Positions 46,957-51,212 of a stretch of 60,906 nucleotides of DNA are shown piece by piece. Every line of letters begins with the position of its first letter. Within the stretch, counting starts at the first letter, position 1. The notes beneath the pieces are model-generated. The model saw nothing but the letters and a program-made list of their open reading frames with translations. It ran no database searches and was not told the origin of the DNA. Origin of the DNA: an uncultured Pelagibacteraceae bacterium (GTDB lineage Bacteria; Pseudomonadota; Alphaproteobacteria; Pelagibacterales; Pelagibacteraceae); the NCBI GenBank assembly GCA_902623975.1, contig CACNVR010000006.1, positions 1 through 60,906 on the forward strand, read 5' to 3'. Both the position numbers and the translations under genes were made by a program.

Positions 46957-47736
46957 TTAAATATTGGCGGTTGCTAGCATTTTTTTTATTTCAGCTATAG
47001 CTTTTGCTGGATTTAATCCTTTAGGGCATGCACTTGTACAGTTCATAATTGTATGACATCTATAGAGCTTCAGTTCATCTGCAACTTTTTTTAATCGCGC
47101 TTGCCTCTCATTATCTCTACTATCTATAATCCATCTATATGCTTGCAAAAGCACAGCTGGACCTAAATATTTATCACCATTCCACCAATAACTTGGACAA
47201 GATGTTGAGCAACAAGCACACATAATACACTCATAAGCTCCATCTAATTTTGCTCTTTCTTCCTTAGACTGAATAATCTCTTTCGTTTCTGATTTAGAAT
47301 TAGACTTTAACCATGGTTCTATTGACTGATACTGTTTGTATAATCCATCTAAATCACCAATTAAATCTTTTTTGACTTTTAAATGTGGTAATGGATAAAT
47401 ATTTATGTCACCATTTATTTCTTCATGTGGTGTCGTGCATGCCAAACCATTTTTTCCATCCATATTCATTGCACAAGAACCACATACACCATGGGCACAA
47501 GACCTTCTATAAGCTAATGTTGGATCTATTTCATTTTTAATTTTATTTAAAATATCTAAAACTTTTGATGGACAGTTATCCATATCAACTTCATAAGTAT
47601 CGATTCTTGGATTTTCCCCGCTAGATGGGTCCCATCTGTAAATATTAACCTTTTTTAAATTTTTAGAACCAGTTTTATCCTTAAAATATTTACCCTTTTG
47701 GATCCGAGAATTCTCAGGTAAATTAATTTGCACCAT
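46957..47736 (-). CDS. sdhB: Succinate dehydrogenase iron-sulfur subunit
   Basis: The 259-residue electron-transfer subunit of complex II carries three clusters. The [2Fe-2S] ligands are in [18 protein letters not shown] with a later CTT, the [4Fe-4S] site is [16 protein letters not shown] near 160-175, and the third cluster lies in [20 protein letters not shown]. The ATG at 47736 overlaps the sdhA stop (TGATG), which I prefer to an in-frame TTG one codon earlier. All cluster cysteines look intact, unlike the heme ligands of the membrane subunits. Confidence 0.98.
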
Positions 47737-49511
47737 CAATACACTCTTTCTTGTGGTGGAAAATATTGTACATCATTCGTAAGTGTAGATTTATGAACCT
47801 CTCTATAACTAATTTTTGTGTTTTTTCCATCACACCAAGCAAGTGTATGTTGCATAAATTTTTCGTCGTCTCTTTTTGGATAATCTTCTCTTGCGTGCGC
47901 TCCCCGGCTCTCTTTTCTATTATAAGCAGAGTCGACTGTAACAACAGCTTGTCTAATTAAGTTGTCAAATTCCAAAGTTTCTACTAAATCAGTGTTAAAT
48001 ACTAACGATTTATCTTTAACGGATATAGAATTTAAACCCTCATAGGTTTTTCTAATTTCATCTACACCTTCCTTAAGAGTTTTTTCAGTTCTAAATACTG
48101 CGCATTTAGATTGCATAGTTTTTTGCATTGCCAATCTTAATTCAGCTGTTCCAATATCTCCATCTGCATTTCTAATTTTATCGAAACGATCTAAACATTT
48201 TTGAGTTTCCATCTCATTTATTTCTTCATGAGGTGTTCCTGGTTTTATTAATTCCGCAGCTCTTTTTGCAGCTGCCCTTCCGAAAACAACTAAATCAATT
48301 AATGAGTTTGAACCAAGTCTATTTGCACCATGAACTGAAACACACGCTGCTTCACCTATCGCCATTAAGCCAGGAACAGTTTTTTCTGAGCCATTAAGAG
48401 TTAAAACTTCAGCTTTATAATTTGTAGGAATTCCACCCATGTTATAATGAACAGTAGGAACTACCGGAATTGGTTCTTTAGTGACATCTACATTTGCAAA
48501 TAGTCTTGCAGCATCAGTTATACCTGGCAATCTACTCTCAATTATGTCCTTGTCTAAATGACTTAAATTTAAATGAACATGGTCTTGATCTTTACCAACA
48601 CCTCTTCCTTCATTAATTTCAATAGACATTGATCTGCTAACAACATCTCTTGATGCTAAATCTTTTGCTTTCGGTGCATATCTCTCCATAAATCTTTCAC
48701 CTTTAGAATTTGTAAGATATCCTCCTTCTCCTCTTGCACCCTCAGTTATTAAAGTGCCATGACCATAAATTCCTGTTGGATGAAATTGCACAAATTCCAT
48801 ATCCTGCAACGGTAAACCAGCTCTTAAAACCATTGCATTACCATCTCCCGTACAAGTATGAGCCGAAGTTGCTGAATAGTAAACTTTACCATAACCACCT
48901 GTTGCAATGATAACAGTGTGAGCTCTAAATCTATGAATGGTTCCATCATTTAAATTCCAAGCAATTAACCCTTTGCATGCTCCATCTTTCATCAACAAAT
49001 CTAACGCAAAGTATTCAATAAAAAATTCTGTTTTATGTTTGAGTGCTTGTCCATACAATGTATGTAAGATTGCATGGCCTGTTCTATCAGCAGCCGCACA
49101 AGTTCTTTGTACAATTCCATTTCCATAATTTTTTGTCATTCCACCAAATGGCCTTTGATAAATTTTACCATCCTCAGTTCTACTAAAAGGAACACCATAT
49201 TTTTCTAATTCAATCACTGCCTTTGGAGCTTCTTTACAGAGATATTCAATACTATCTTGATCACCTAACCAATCGGCACCTTTTACAGTATCATACATAT
49301 GCCAACGCCAATCATCCTCACCCATATTACCAAGAGCAGCAGAAATACCTCCTTGTGCAGCAGAAGTATGACTTCTGGTAGGAAAAACTTTTGAAATACA
49401 GGCAGTTTTTAATCCCGCTTCACTTAAACCAACTGCAGCTCTTAAACCTGAGCCACCGGCTCCTAAAACTACCACATCGTATTCATGATCAATTATTTTA
49501 TATGAATTCAT
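47736..49511 (-). CDS. sdhA: Succinate dehydrogenase flavoprotein subunit
   Basis: The 591-residue FAD subunit oxidises succinate. The dinucleotide motif is [20 protein letters not shown] near 15-34, and the covalent-FAD histidine lies in [17 protein letters not shown] near 46-62. [20 protein letters not shown] lies near 240-260 and [11 protein letters not shown] near 350. Its start overlaps sdhD by four bases (ATGA) and its stop overlaps sdhB. Confidence 0.99.
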
Positions 49512-49831
49512 AATCTAGATATTAATATAATTGTAATTAATGGAATTACCACTCCTGAGGCATATAAAATCTTGTTTGCGACACTTTTGATTTTATAATT
49601 TTTGATATAATCCTCAAAAACCTCACTAATACTCAAGGCAGAAAAGAAATATGCATTAATAATAAAAAGACTAAATAGAAATTTGGATAACGGGTTAGAA
49701 AAAAAATTCACTAATACAGAATAATTTTGATTATAAATTTCTATAAAATTTACTATAAACCACAACATAAATGGAATCAGAGTTGCTCCACTAATTTTGA
49801 GAAATAACCATTTTTTAGTTGCACTAATCAT
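49508..49831 (-). CDS. sdhD: Succinate dehydrogenase membrane anchor SdhD, without histidine
   Basis: The 107-residue protein has three membrane helices and is placed between sdhC and sdhA. The family landmark Glu-Asp-Tyr of the quinone site is present in [14 protein letters not shown] near residue 72, with the Tyr matching E. coli SdhD Tyr83. The heme b axial ligand, expected 11 residues before that Asp, is phenylalanine. The whole protein contains no histidine at all. Length is slightly short (usually 115-130). The call as SdhD rests on position, topology and the EDY motif. Confidence 0.88.
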
Positions 49832-50215
49832 CTAAAAAAAACTTCCTCCAAATAAATAAAAAATTACTGTCAAAATTATTGAACCAAATATGACTATAAA
49901 ACCAGTTATCCTCGAAGTCTTCAGTTCAAATCCATATCCTAAATCCATAATCAAGTGCCTAATCTCACTTAGAATTTGGAAAGAGAAGGACCAAGTAAGT
50001 CCTAGTATAATGAATTTACCTATTTGTGAGCTTAAAAATAATTCAATAACTTTATAATTATTTTCACCGAGAACAAGTAGTGAAGCTAATAAACAAACAA
50101 GTGTTATTGCAATTATATTAATTATACCTGTAATCCTATGTGAAATAGACACCAAAGATGATATGTGCCATTTATAAATTTGAATATGAGGGGATAACGG
50201 CGCTTTATTTTCCAT
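49832..50215 (-). CDS. sdhC: Succinate dehydrogenase cytochrome b556 subunit SdhC
   Basis: The 127-residue anchor has three membrane helices. PLSPHIQIYKWHISSLVSIS and HRITGIINII give the quinone-site Ser and Arg (HRxxG, residues 26-30). The third landmark aligns without gaps to E. coli: FIILGLTWSFSFQILSEIRH matches the segment containing heme ligand His84 and His91. Here His84 is Gln80, Gly88 is Glu84, and only the second histidine (His87) remains, followed by LIMDLGYG. It overlaps asd by 11 bases and starts the sdhCDAB set. Confidence 0.93.
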   Translation of the reverse strand: MENKAPLSPHIQIYKWHISSLVSISHRITGIINIIAITLVCLLASLLVLGENNYKVIELFLSSQIGKFIILGLTWSFSFQILSEIRHLIMDLGYGFELKTSRITGFIVIFGSIILTVIFYLFGGSFF

Positions 50216-51212
50216 AAAATTTATTTTTAATTAATCTTTCTGCTATTTCTACTGCATTTAAAGCTGCACCTCTTAAAAGATTGTCTGAAACAATCCATAA
50301 ATTTAATCCATTTTCAACTGTTTTATCTTCTCTTATTCTTGAAATGAAAGTTTCATCTTTTCCCTCAGCCTCTAAAGGAGTTGAATATCCACCATCACAT
50401 CTTTCATCAATTACTTTACAACCCTCAAAACTATTTAGTGCATTTCTCACTTTTTCAAGAGAAAAAGGTTTTTCAAATTGCAGATTAACTGATTCTGAAT
50501 GAGAAACAGAAATTGGCAATCTTACACATGTTGCTGTTAAATCAATTTTATCATCTAAGATTTTTTTTGTTTCATTGCTCATTTTTAATTCTTCTTTGGT
50601 GTAACCATCATCTGAAAATATATCAATATGTGGAATAGCATTAAAAGCTATTTGTTTAGTAAAATTTTTAGATTTTACTTTTTTACCATTCAAAACCAAT
50701 TGTGTTTGTTCAATTAATTCATCCATAGGTGCTTTACCAGCGCCCGAGACTGATTGGTAAGTAGAGACAACCACTCTTTTTATAATGAATAAATCATGAA
50801 GAGGTTTAAGGGCAATTACTAATTGTGCTGTCGAGCAATTTGGATTGGCTATTATATTCTTTTTTATTTTATTTAAGTGATTTGAATTTACCTGTGGTAC
50901 AATTAAAGGCACTTCTGGATCCATTCTAAAAAAACTTGAATTATCAATAACTAAACAATGTTTTGCGGCTTTCTCAGCAAATTTTTCTGAAATTTTTCCT
51001 CCTGCAGCAAAAAAAGCAATTTTTACTTTTGAAAAATCAAAATTTTCTAAATTATAAACTTCATAATCTTTGTTCTTGAATCTGATCTTTTTACCGGAAC
51101 TTTTTGATGAAGCAACTAAATATAAGTTATTTATAGCTAGTTCTTTTTTTTCAAGAACCTCTAAAGTTTTACGTCCAACATTCCCTGTTGCTCCTACAAT
51201 TGCAATATTCAT
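50205..51212 (-). CDS. asd: Aspartate-semialdehyde dehydrogenase
   Basis: The 335-residue enzyme makes aspartate semialdehyde for lysine, threonine and methionine. It has AIVGATGNVGRKTLEVL at the N-terminus and the catalytic cysteine in ANPNCSTAQLVIALKPL near residue 130. TYQSVSGAGKAPMDEL is near 157 and the substrate stretch CVRLPISVSHSESVNLQF is near 238. In most alphaproteobacteria asd follows leuB; here the dmd genes separate them. It begins 15 bases after dmdA and its 3' end overlaps sdhC. Confidence 0.97.
   Translation of the reverse strand: MNIAIVGATGNVGRKTLEVLEKKELAINNLYLVASSKSSGKKIRFKNKDYEVYNLENFDFSKVKIAFFAAGGKISEKFAEKAAKHCLVIDNSSFFRMDPEVPLIVPQVNSNHLNKIKKNIIANPNCSTAQLVIALKPLHDLFIIKRVVVSTYQSVSGAGKAPMDELIEQTQLVLNGKKVKSKNFTKQIAFNAIPHIDIFSDDGYTKEELKMSNETKKILDDKIDLTATCVRLPISVSHSESVNLQFEKPFSLEKVRNALNSFEGCKVIDERCDGGYSTPLEAEGKDETFISRIREDKTVENGLNLWIVSDNLLRGAALNAVEIAERLIKNKFYGK

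Follow-up and report, generated by a model that had tools for sequence, protein, structure and literature searches.

A complex II of marine Pelagibacteraceae with both heme b ligands replaced and a probable heme-free state

Introduction

In the complex II family, electrons travel from FAD through three iron-sulfur clusters and directly to ubiquinone. The type C enzyme has in addition a heme b in its membrane domain, with one axial ligand provided by each of the two anchor subunits, SdhC and SdhD. In Escherichia coli this heme lies off the direct electron path, and the [3Fe-4S] cluster can reduce ubiquinone directly (excerpts of PMC3290573). The distal heme propionate is held by SdhD Arg20, SdhC His91 and SdhB His207 and the proximal one by SdhC Arg31 and SdhD Gln78, such that R20 and R31, and likewise H91 and Q78, form pseudo-two-fold pairs (excerpts of PMC3290573). 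Heme stabilises the isolated enzyme, and a heme-free variant supports growth on succinate, but with slower turnover (excerpts of PMC3290573).

Heme-free members of the family also occur naturally. Complex II of Saccharomyces cerevisiae is hemeless as judged by cryo-EM and by its spectrum; the histidine of the SdhC-type subunit is kept and that of the SdhD-type subunit is a tyrosine (excerpts of PMC13066397). Four residues past the lost ligand, a glycine has given way to Sdh4 Glu112, whose contact with Sdh3 Arg97 takes the place of a propionate's (excerpts of PMC13066397). Tetrahymena and Perkinsus likewise have a membrane domain without heme, within divergent eukaryotic architectures (excerpts of PMC13066397), and the fumarate reductase of E. 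coli, FrdABCD, has two hemeless anchor subunits (excerpts of PMC3290573).

SAR11 bacteria rank with the ocean's most abundant cells, and few forms of complex II on Earth are as numerous as that of marine Pelagibacter. A literature search by titles and abstract openings, a weak instrument, found no publication describing a SAR11 complex II that has lost its heme b, and the available portions of PMC12636525, PMC5069961, PMC4013037, PMC4771312 and PMC10030771 do not mention it. Nor did the literature yield a spectrum, a heme assay or a structure of any SAR11 complex II. Here, we describe the sdhCDAB operon in a 60,906-nucleotide stretch of DNA from an uncultured Pelagibacteraceae bacterium (the window), in which both ligand positions carry other residues.

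Materials and methods

Residues were mapped onto SdhC, SdhD, SdhA and SdhB of E. coli K-12, whose numbers are used for alignment columns. The residues at SdhC 84 and 88 and at SdhD 71, 75 and 20 were tabulated in 304 rows with both subunits: 136 from Pelagibacterales, 98 from a survey of the class, 69 from a survey of the phylum, which include some Alphaproteobacteria, and the row of E. coli itself. Left out before counting were G118, in which no SdhC was found, and L215 and L240, in which no SdhD was found. The class survey gave matches in 197 of 241 genomes, with 100 loci taken, and the phylum survey in 157 of 199, with 69 loci taken. Surveyed loci were the best-scoring ones together with others selected manually because their genome was small, their score was low or they widened the spread of families; the draw is therefore non-random. 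Within the order, g1 denotes the genus of the window, g5 to g14 other genera, and f2 a sister family. A further set of named loci consisted of the best 80 of 421 relatives. Pairwise dN/dS was calculated for the two commonest lengths of each gene from pairs with 0.1 < dS < 1.5.

Results and discussion

The four genes lie in the E. coli order on the reverse strand of the window. sdhC (49832-50215) encodes a cytochrome b556-type anchor of 127 residues, with 119.4 bits against TIGR02970 (cut-off 52.3), 93.1 bits against PF01127 (cut-off 25.8) and a phmmer match to E. coli SdhC (1nek_C) at E=3.4e-10. Its TAG stop codon directly adjoins the ATG of sdhD (49508-49831), which encodes the second hydrophobic anchor, of 107 residues; this scores 47.7 bits against TIGR02968 (cut-off 41.8) and lies just under the PF01127 cut-off (24.8 versus 25.8 bits). 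Next come the flavoprotein gene sdhA (47736-49511; TIGR01816, 958 bits versus 727), which overlaps sdhD by four bases, and the iron-sulfur subunit gene sdhB (46957-47739; PRK05950, 359 bits versus 228). By reading of the translations, asd (50205-51212) precedes the operon on the same strand, and beyond sdhB lie a gene for an aldehyde dehydrogenase, mdh and sucC.

With both anchors above the curated cut-offs of equivalog models, the complex belongs to the SdhCDAB succinate dehydrogenase lineage. Its anchors differ from those of the FrdC/FrdD kind in their SdhC and SdhD family matches and in the heme ligands that close relatives keep. Among the Frd anchor families (Fumarate_red_C and Fumarate_red_D), the sole match was a sub-threshold one of SdhC to PF02313 (22.6 bits, cut-off 25), and SdhD matched neither at E<=0.001. 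A search of the organism's own genome (85% complete) with PF01127 for a second set of anchors returned the two known matches only.

The heme ligand positions are altered in both anchors. SdhC aligns to E. coli without gaps over the ligand helix and has Gln80 (49976-49978) at the position of His84 and Glu84 (49964-49966) at the position of the conserved Gly88, four residues past the ligand (+4). SdhD has Phe63 (49643-49645) at the position of His71 and Ser67 at that of Gly75, and contains no histidine. Thus, neither subunit retains the axial ligand that defines a type C enzyme. Of the neighbouring positions in SdhC, His30 and Asp95 are conserved as His26 and Asp91, and E. coli His91, a non-ligand that hydrogen-bonds a propionate (excerpts of PMC3290573), is conserved as His87 (49955-49957). 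In SdhD, Gln78 is replaced by Glu70 and Arg20, which binds the distal propionate in E. coli, by Lys12 (49796-49798). A search of the anchors for another pair of His, Met or Cys ligands revealed no obvious one: the candidates in SdhC are His10, His17, His26 and His87 (its only histidines), Cys41 and Met90, and SdhD has neither His nor Cys, just Met1 and Met22.

The remainder of the enzyme is well preserved. The quinone site, which we take to comprise SdhC Ser27 and Arg31, SdhD Asp82 and Tyr83, and SdhB Pro160, Trp164 and His207, is retained in full, with the anchor residues at SdhC Ser23 and Arg27 and at SdhD Asp74 and Tyr75 (49607-49609); the tyrosine is present in all aligned rows. SdhC Arg27 (50135-50137) is also the counterpart of a proximal propionate residue (excerpts of PMC3290573). 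All 11 cysteines of E. coli SdhB are unchanged, and SdhA residues H45, H242, R286, H354 and R399, including the FAD-linked histidine and the catalytic residues, are identical. An earlier note on this DNA, made from the letters alone, had described the two ligand substitutions, the glutamate at the glycine position, the lack of histidine in SdhD and the intact quinone, cluster and flavin sites, and the alignment to E. coli agrees with it on each. With E. coli SdhCDAB the complex has in common its subunits and their gene order, FAD and the three Fe-S clusters, and the quinone-site residues. The E. coli enzyme differs in having both heme ligands, glycine at SdhC 88 and SdhD 75, and arginine at SdhD 20.

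The register of the SdhD alignment is its weaker point, as a sequence search of the PDB matched no SDH chain. It is supported by the TIGR02968 score above cut-off, by relatives with histidine in that column and by structure, over 105 aligned residues. For the structural comparison, a model of SdhC and SdhD joined in one chain was used. Residues 131-235 of the model align with E. coli SdhD 11-115, the equal lengths implying no net gap, and model residue 191 (SdhD Phe63) superposes on His71; the match has Z 9.1 and rmsd 2.3, a range of Z that can mean a common helical arrangement. The model is modest (mean pLDDT 68.4, pTM 0.63, with residues 93-117 and 119-129 below 50), and the ends joined in the fusion sit on opposite membrane faces. 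Because of this topological conflict and the modest confidence, the model was used for the register of SdhD alone; that of SdhC comes from sequence, E. coli SdhC chains having aligned to the SdhD part of the fusion. Foldseek returned no match at E<=0.001 for the fused model; E. coli SdhD came top, at E 0.36. In the structural alignment, single-chain diheme anchors, which the artificial fusion resembles, ranked first; for that of Wolinella fumarate reductase, Z was 13.8 over 201 residues.

The substitutions are characteristic of the whole genus. In g1, SdhC has Gln84 and Glu88 in 66/66 rows, and SdhD position 71 is Phe in 53, Tyr in 11 and His in two (G174 and G221). The alignment of SAR11 and other alphaproteobacterial anchors suggested in the earlier note thus gives loss of the SdhC ligand throughout the genus and of both ligands in 64 of 66 rows. 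Among the best 80 of 421 relatives, the 67 distinct SdhC sequences all have the Gln and Glu (65 by pattern, two by eye) and the 68 distinct SdhD sequences all have Phe, SdhD having been recovered from 77 of these loci. An error of sequencing or assembly is ruled out by these distinct sequences, by the 66 concordant rows and by the low dN/dS medians given below.

Other genera of the order show the full range of states. Both histidines and Gly88 are present in all 25 rows from g6 (6), g8 (6), g11 (1), g12 (6) and g14 (6). g7 is intermediate, with His84, Glu88 and Phe71 together in 16 of 17 rows (His84 in 16, Glu88 and Phe71 in all 17). In g5, Gln84 is found in 13/16 rows, Glu88 in 15/16 and SdhD Phe in 15/16, and one genome, G152, retains both ligands. 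In the sister family f2, the two rows of g3 retain both ligands (His84, Gly88, His71), whereas in g2 (8) and g4 (2) SdhC 84 is Tyr and the SdhD histidine is kept in 10/10 rows. Judged from these residues, the ligand lost first or alone appears to be that of SdhD in Pelagibacteraceae and that of SdhC in f2. Position 20 of SdhD is Lys in 64/66 rows of g1, 17/17 of g7 and 15/16 of g5 and Arg in the 25 rows of g6, g8, g11, g12 and g14; Lys also occurs with both ligands in the two g3 rows and in six rows of the class survey. Position 75 of SdhD is Ser in the ligand-keeping genera g6 (5/6) and g11, and loss of the SdhD glycine is therefore not tied to loss of heme.

Outside Pelagibacterales, 162 of the 168 chosen rows retain both ligands, and SdhC 88 is Gly in 68/69 rows of the phylum survey and 94/100 of the class survey. 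What heme b does in complex II has long been debated: it lies off the direct electron path, yet these rows keep both its ligands. The six rows with losses are L234, L235, L239 and L241 (SdhC Tyr, SdhD His), L242 (SdhC Tyr, SdhD Val) and L488 (SdhD Tyr, without any acid at +4). In all five that lost the SdhC ligand, SdhD 75 is Glu, the position of yeast Glu112, and L239 and L241, which belong to the same genus, carry a second Glu at SdhC 88. The only keeper with an acid at +4 among the 162 is L247 (G267), with Asp at SdhC 88. The acid is thus found in 5/6 losers and 1/162 keepers (Fisher p 3e-8, a value that ignores kinship and the choice of rows), in SdhD 75 in the five rows outside the order as opposed to SdhC 88 in g1, g5 and g7. 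Ten losers in f2 (g2 and g4) lost the SdhC ligand without an acid at +4. Taken together, these alignments suggest that ligand loss tends to go with a Gly-to-acid change four residues past the ligand, an association that is new here.

The reading that we favour, at a probability of about 0.8, is that the window encodes a working succinate:ubiquinone oxidoreductase which belongs to the type C lineage but has ceased to bind heme b; we infer both the absence of heme and the catalytic competence. It is supported by loss of the ligands in 64 of 66 rows, the low dN/dS values given below, the lack of an obvious other ligand pair and the retained quinone residues, and also by a glutamate where yeast-like enzymes replace a propionate. 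That yeast complex II is heme-free with one ligand lost lends it further support. Ligand loss and a Gly-to-Glu change at +4, the combination expected of a heme-free offshoot, occur together in the window, the Glu being in SdhC and not in the SdhD-type subunit. The working complex II without heme b proposed in the earlier note therefore stands as an inference, apart from the motive attached to it, to which we return below.

In structural terms, the slot between SdhC and SdhD would probably be closed by two aromatic residues, SdhD Phe62 and Phe63, and by the carboxylate of SdhC Glu84. By analogy with the pseudo-two-fold symmetry of the E. coli site, Glu84 may take over the contact of the distal propionate with the Arg20 position of SdhD, here Lys12, in mirror image of the yeast contact between Sdh4 Glu112 and Sdh3 Arg97. 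A replacement of this kind is suggested by the yeast structure (excerpts of PMC13066397). With S. cerevisiae the complex shares type C architecture, replacement of His by an aromatic residue, a +4 Gly-to-Glu change and a kept quinone site (excerpts of PMC13066397), and presumably the absence of heme. It differs in that both ligands are lost and the Glu is in SdhC, whereas yeast keeps the SdhC-type histidine and has the Glu in the SdhD-type subunit. On its residues, the window complex is a bacterial mirror-image variant of the state known in yeast and some protists.

Other heme-free systems are less close. The engineered E. coli enzyme, for which we know of no compensating Glu, is a slower laboratory mutant. 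Absence of heme with partial activity (Tran 2007, via excerpts of PMC3290573) would be common to it and the Pelagibacter enzyme. A heme-free membrane domain would likewise be shared with Tetrahymena and Perkinsus, and two hemeless anchors with FrdABCD, from which the Pelagibacter anchors differ by belonging to the SdhC and SdhD families and by having close relatives that retain ligands.

A wider reading, which we consider probable but hold with less assurance, is that marine Pelagibacter complex II is heme-free and that the route is a repeatable one, in which the +4 Gly-to-Glu change stands in for a propionate. The subunit that took the change would then be SdhC in Pelagibacteraceae, and SdhD both in yeast and in no fewer than four further genera of Alphaproteobacteria. 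Against it, and against the reading favoured above, stand L247, with an acid and both ligands, and L488 and the ten f2 losers, without an acid. If true, the +4 change, seen in several lineages and with opposite subunit polarity in yeast, could serve as a simple, though imperfect and non-obligatory, sequence marker of heme-free complex II. Because the loss is natural and genus-wide and close cultured relatives have both ligands, the role of heme b becomes directly testable; SAR11 strains in culture, with and without the change, would provide a natural test of its function. For models of SAR11 iron quotas and proteomes, one heme b per complex II should not be assumed.

The cause of the loss is a separate matter. 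The earlier note had proposed a saving of heme and iron in an iron-poor ocean, a motive that is not established. Such adaptive saving, as opposed to relaxed selection or drift, would be compatible with a heme-free enzyme, and we regard it as possible but doubtful. Habitat speaks for it in part: the keeper g8 is putatively the freshwater LD12, the keepers g12 and g14 look like subclade IIIa, described as brackish-adapted (excerpts of PMC10030771), and the putative HTCC1062, HTCC7211 and HIMB5, all losers, are marine. Surveyed SAR11 genomes were without heme and siderophore uptake (excerpts of PMC4771312). However, HIMB114 and IMCC9063, putative members of the keepers g12 and g14, were isolated from marine coasts, relatives with equally small genomes retain both ligands, and ligand losses extend to yeast and to five further genera of Alphaproteobacteria, whose habitat is not known; moreover, the habitat contrast is confounded with one or two events in the tree. 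The usual complex II has nine iron atoms in clusters and one in heme, so that about one Fe in 10 would be saved per complex. Ferrochelatase is present, and the cell most likely still makes heme.

An alternative to the heme-free state itself is that heme b is still bound, through SdhC His87 or His26 or else through an atypical ligand, for instance Gln80, and may be five-coordinate. His87 and His26 are both retained near the pocket, and axial-ligand mutants of E. coli reportedly keep their heme (Maklashina 2001, cited in PMC13066397); the half-lost complexes of g7, f2, G174 and G221 may therefore still bind it. For the window complex we consider this unlikely. His87, which the earlier note had named as a residue that might coordinate heme, corresponds to E. 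coli His91, whose bond is to the distal propionate (excerpts of PMC3290573), and SdhD offers no histidine or cysteine as a partner. Furthermore, the +4 glycine is Glu in every g1 row, and the yeast counterpart of this residue does the job of the propionate in a hemeless enzyme (excerpts of PMC13066397).

Both anchor genes are under purifying selection. Median dN/dS was 0.115 and 0.089 for sdhC and 0.146 and 0.160 for sdhD in the two length classes of each, with one sdhC pair reaching 1.89, and among genomes that include many drafts, SdhD was matched in 130/148 of the family and SdhC in 107/118 of the order. Decay of the anchors, or a complex with hardly any quinone reductase function, is thus very improbable in view of these medians (0.09-0.16), this distribution and the retained quinone-site Ser, Arg and Asp-Tyr and SdhB His, Trp and Pro, even though cofactor ligands have been lost, the anchors are divergent, SdhD falls under the Pfam cut-off and was unmatched to SDH chains in the PDB sequence search, and the E. 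coli enzyme without heme turns over more slowly and has lower stability (excerpts of PMC3290573).

The states within the order fit a stepwise loss, in which SdhC Gly88Glu and loss of SdhD His71 would be common to g1, g5 and g7; SdhC His84Gln is fixed in g1 and found in most of g5. A tree of RpoB and GyrA gave a firm group of keepers, (g8,(g12,g14)), followed by an unresolved fork of g11, g6, g1 and (g5,g7), and a single clade of g1, g5 and g7 was not rejected (AU p=0.52). In a quick SdhA tree, by comparison, the keepers g6 and g11 were nested among losers, and in the light of the two trees we claim no single origin of the loss. Within g1, the SdhD histidine of G174 and G221 may represent either reversion from Tyr or retention.

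Discussion

Replacement of heme b axial ligands (SdhC His84 and SdhD His71, E. coli numbering) is also seen in alphaproteobacteria outside SAR11. In five sdh loci (L234, L235, L239, L241 and L242 of genomes G316, G365, G341, G438 and G296, respectively; genome sizes 1.2–2.0 Mb), SdhC His84 is replaced by Tyr and SdhD Gly75 by Glu, and in L242 both ligands are gone. The SdhD Glu75 of these loci occupies the position of Glu112 in the heme-free complex II of yeast (PMC13066397). The ligand state of yeast itself recurs in another alphaproteobacterium (L488, G543; 1.5-Mb genome), where SdhD His71 is replaced by Tyr and the SdhC His is retained, but a +4 Glu is absent.

In the sister family f2, the SdhC ligand has been lost independently in genera g2 and g4 (L135–L144), with Tyr in its place, Cys or Ser at position 88, and the SdhD His retained. 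All 136 Pelagibacterales rows, whether heme-competent or not, have Glu at SdhD position 78 (Glu70 in the window), where E. coli instead has Gln78, which binds the proximal propionate. This Glu may be a predisposition of the order to heme loss.

Two loci of the window genus (L147, G174; L151, G221) combine SdhD His71 with SdhC Gln84, the His representing either reversion or retention. The draft genomes G096 (L041, genus g6) and G152 (L059, g5) have similar SdhD sequences, each differing from its own genus, possibly through contamination or transfer. Neither SdhA above the family cut-off (0/5) nor an SdhD match was found in G066 and G077 (g9), G070 (g13), G075 (g7; 98% complete) and G198 (window genus g1; 95% complete); these are possibly SDH-less SAR11 lineages, or contigs are missing.

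Finally, the window SdhB (46957–47739) has 260 aa compared to 238 in E. coli, with approximately 25 additional aa at the N-terminus, and the TTG listed as its start is probably not the true start.
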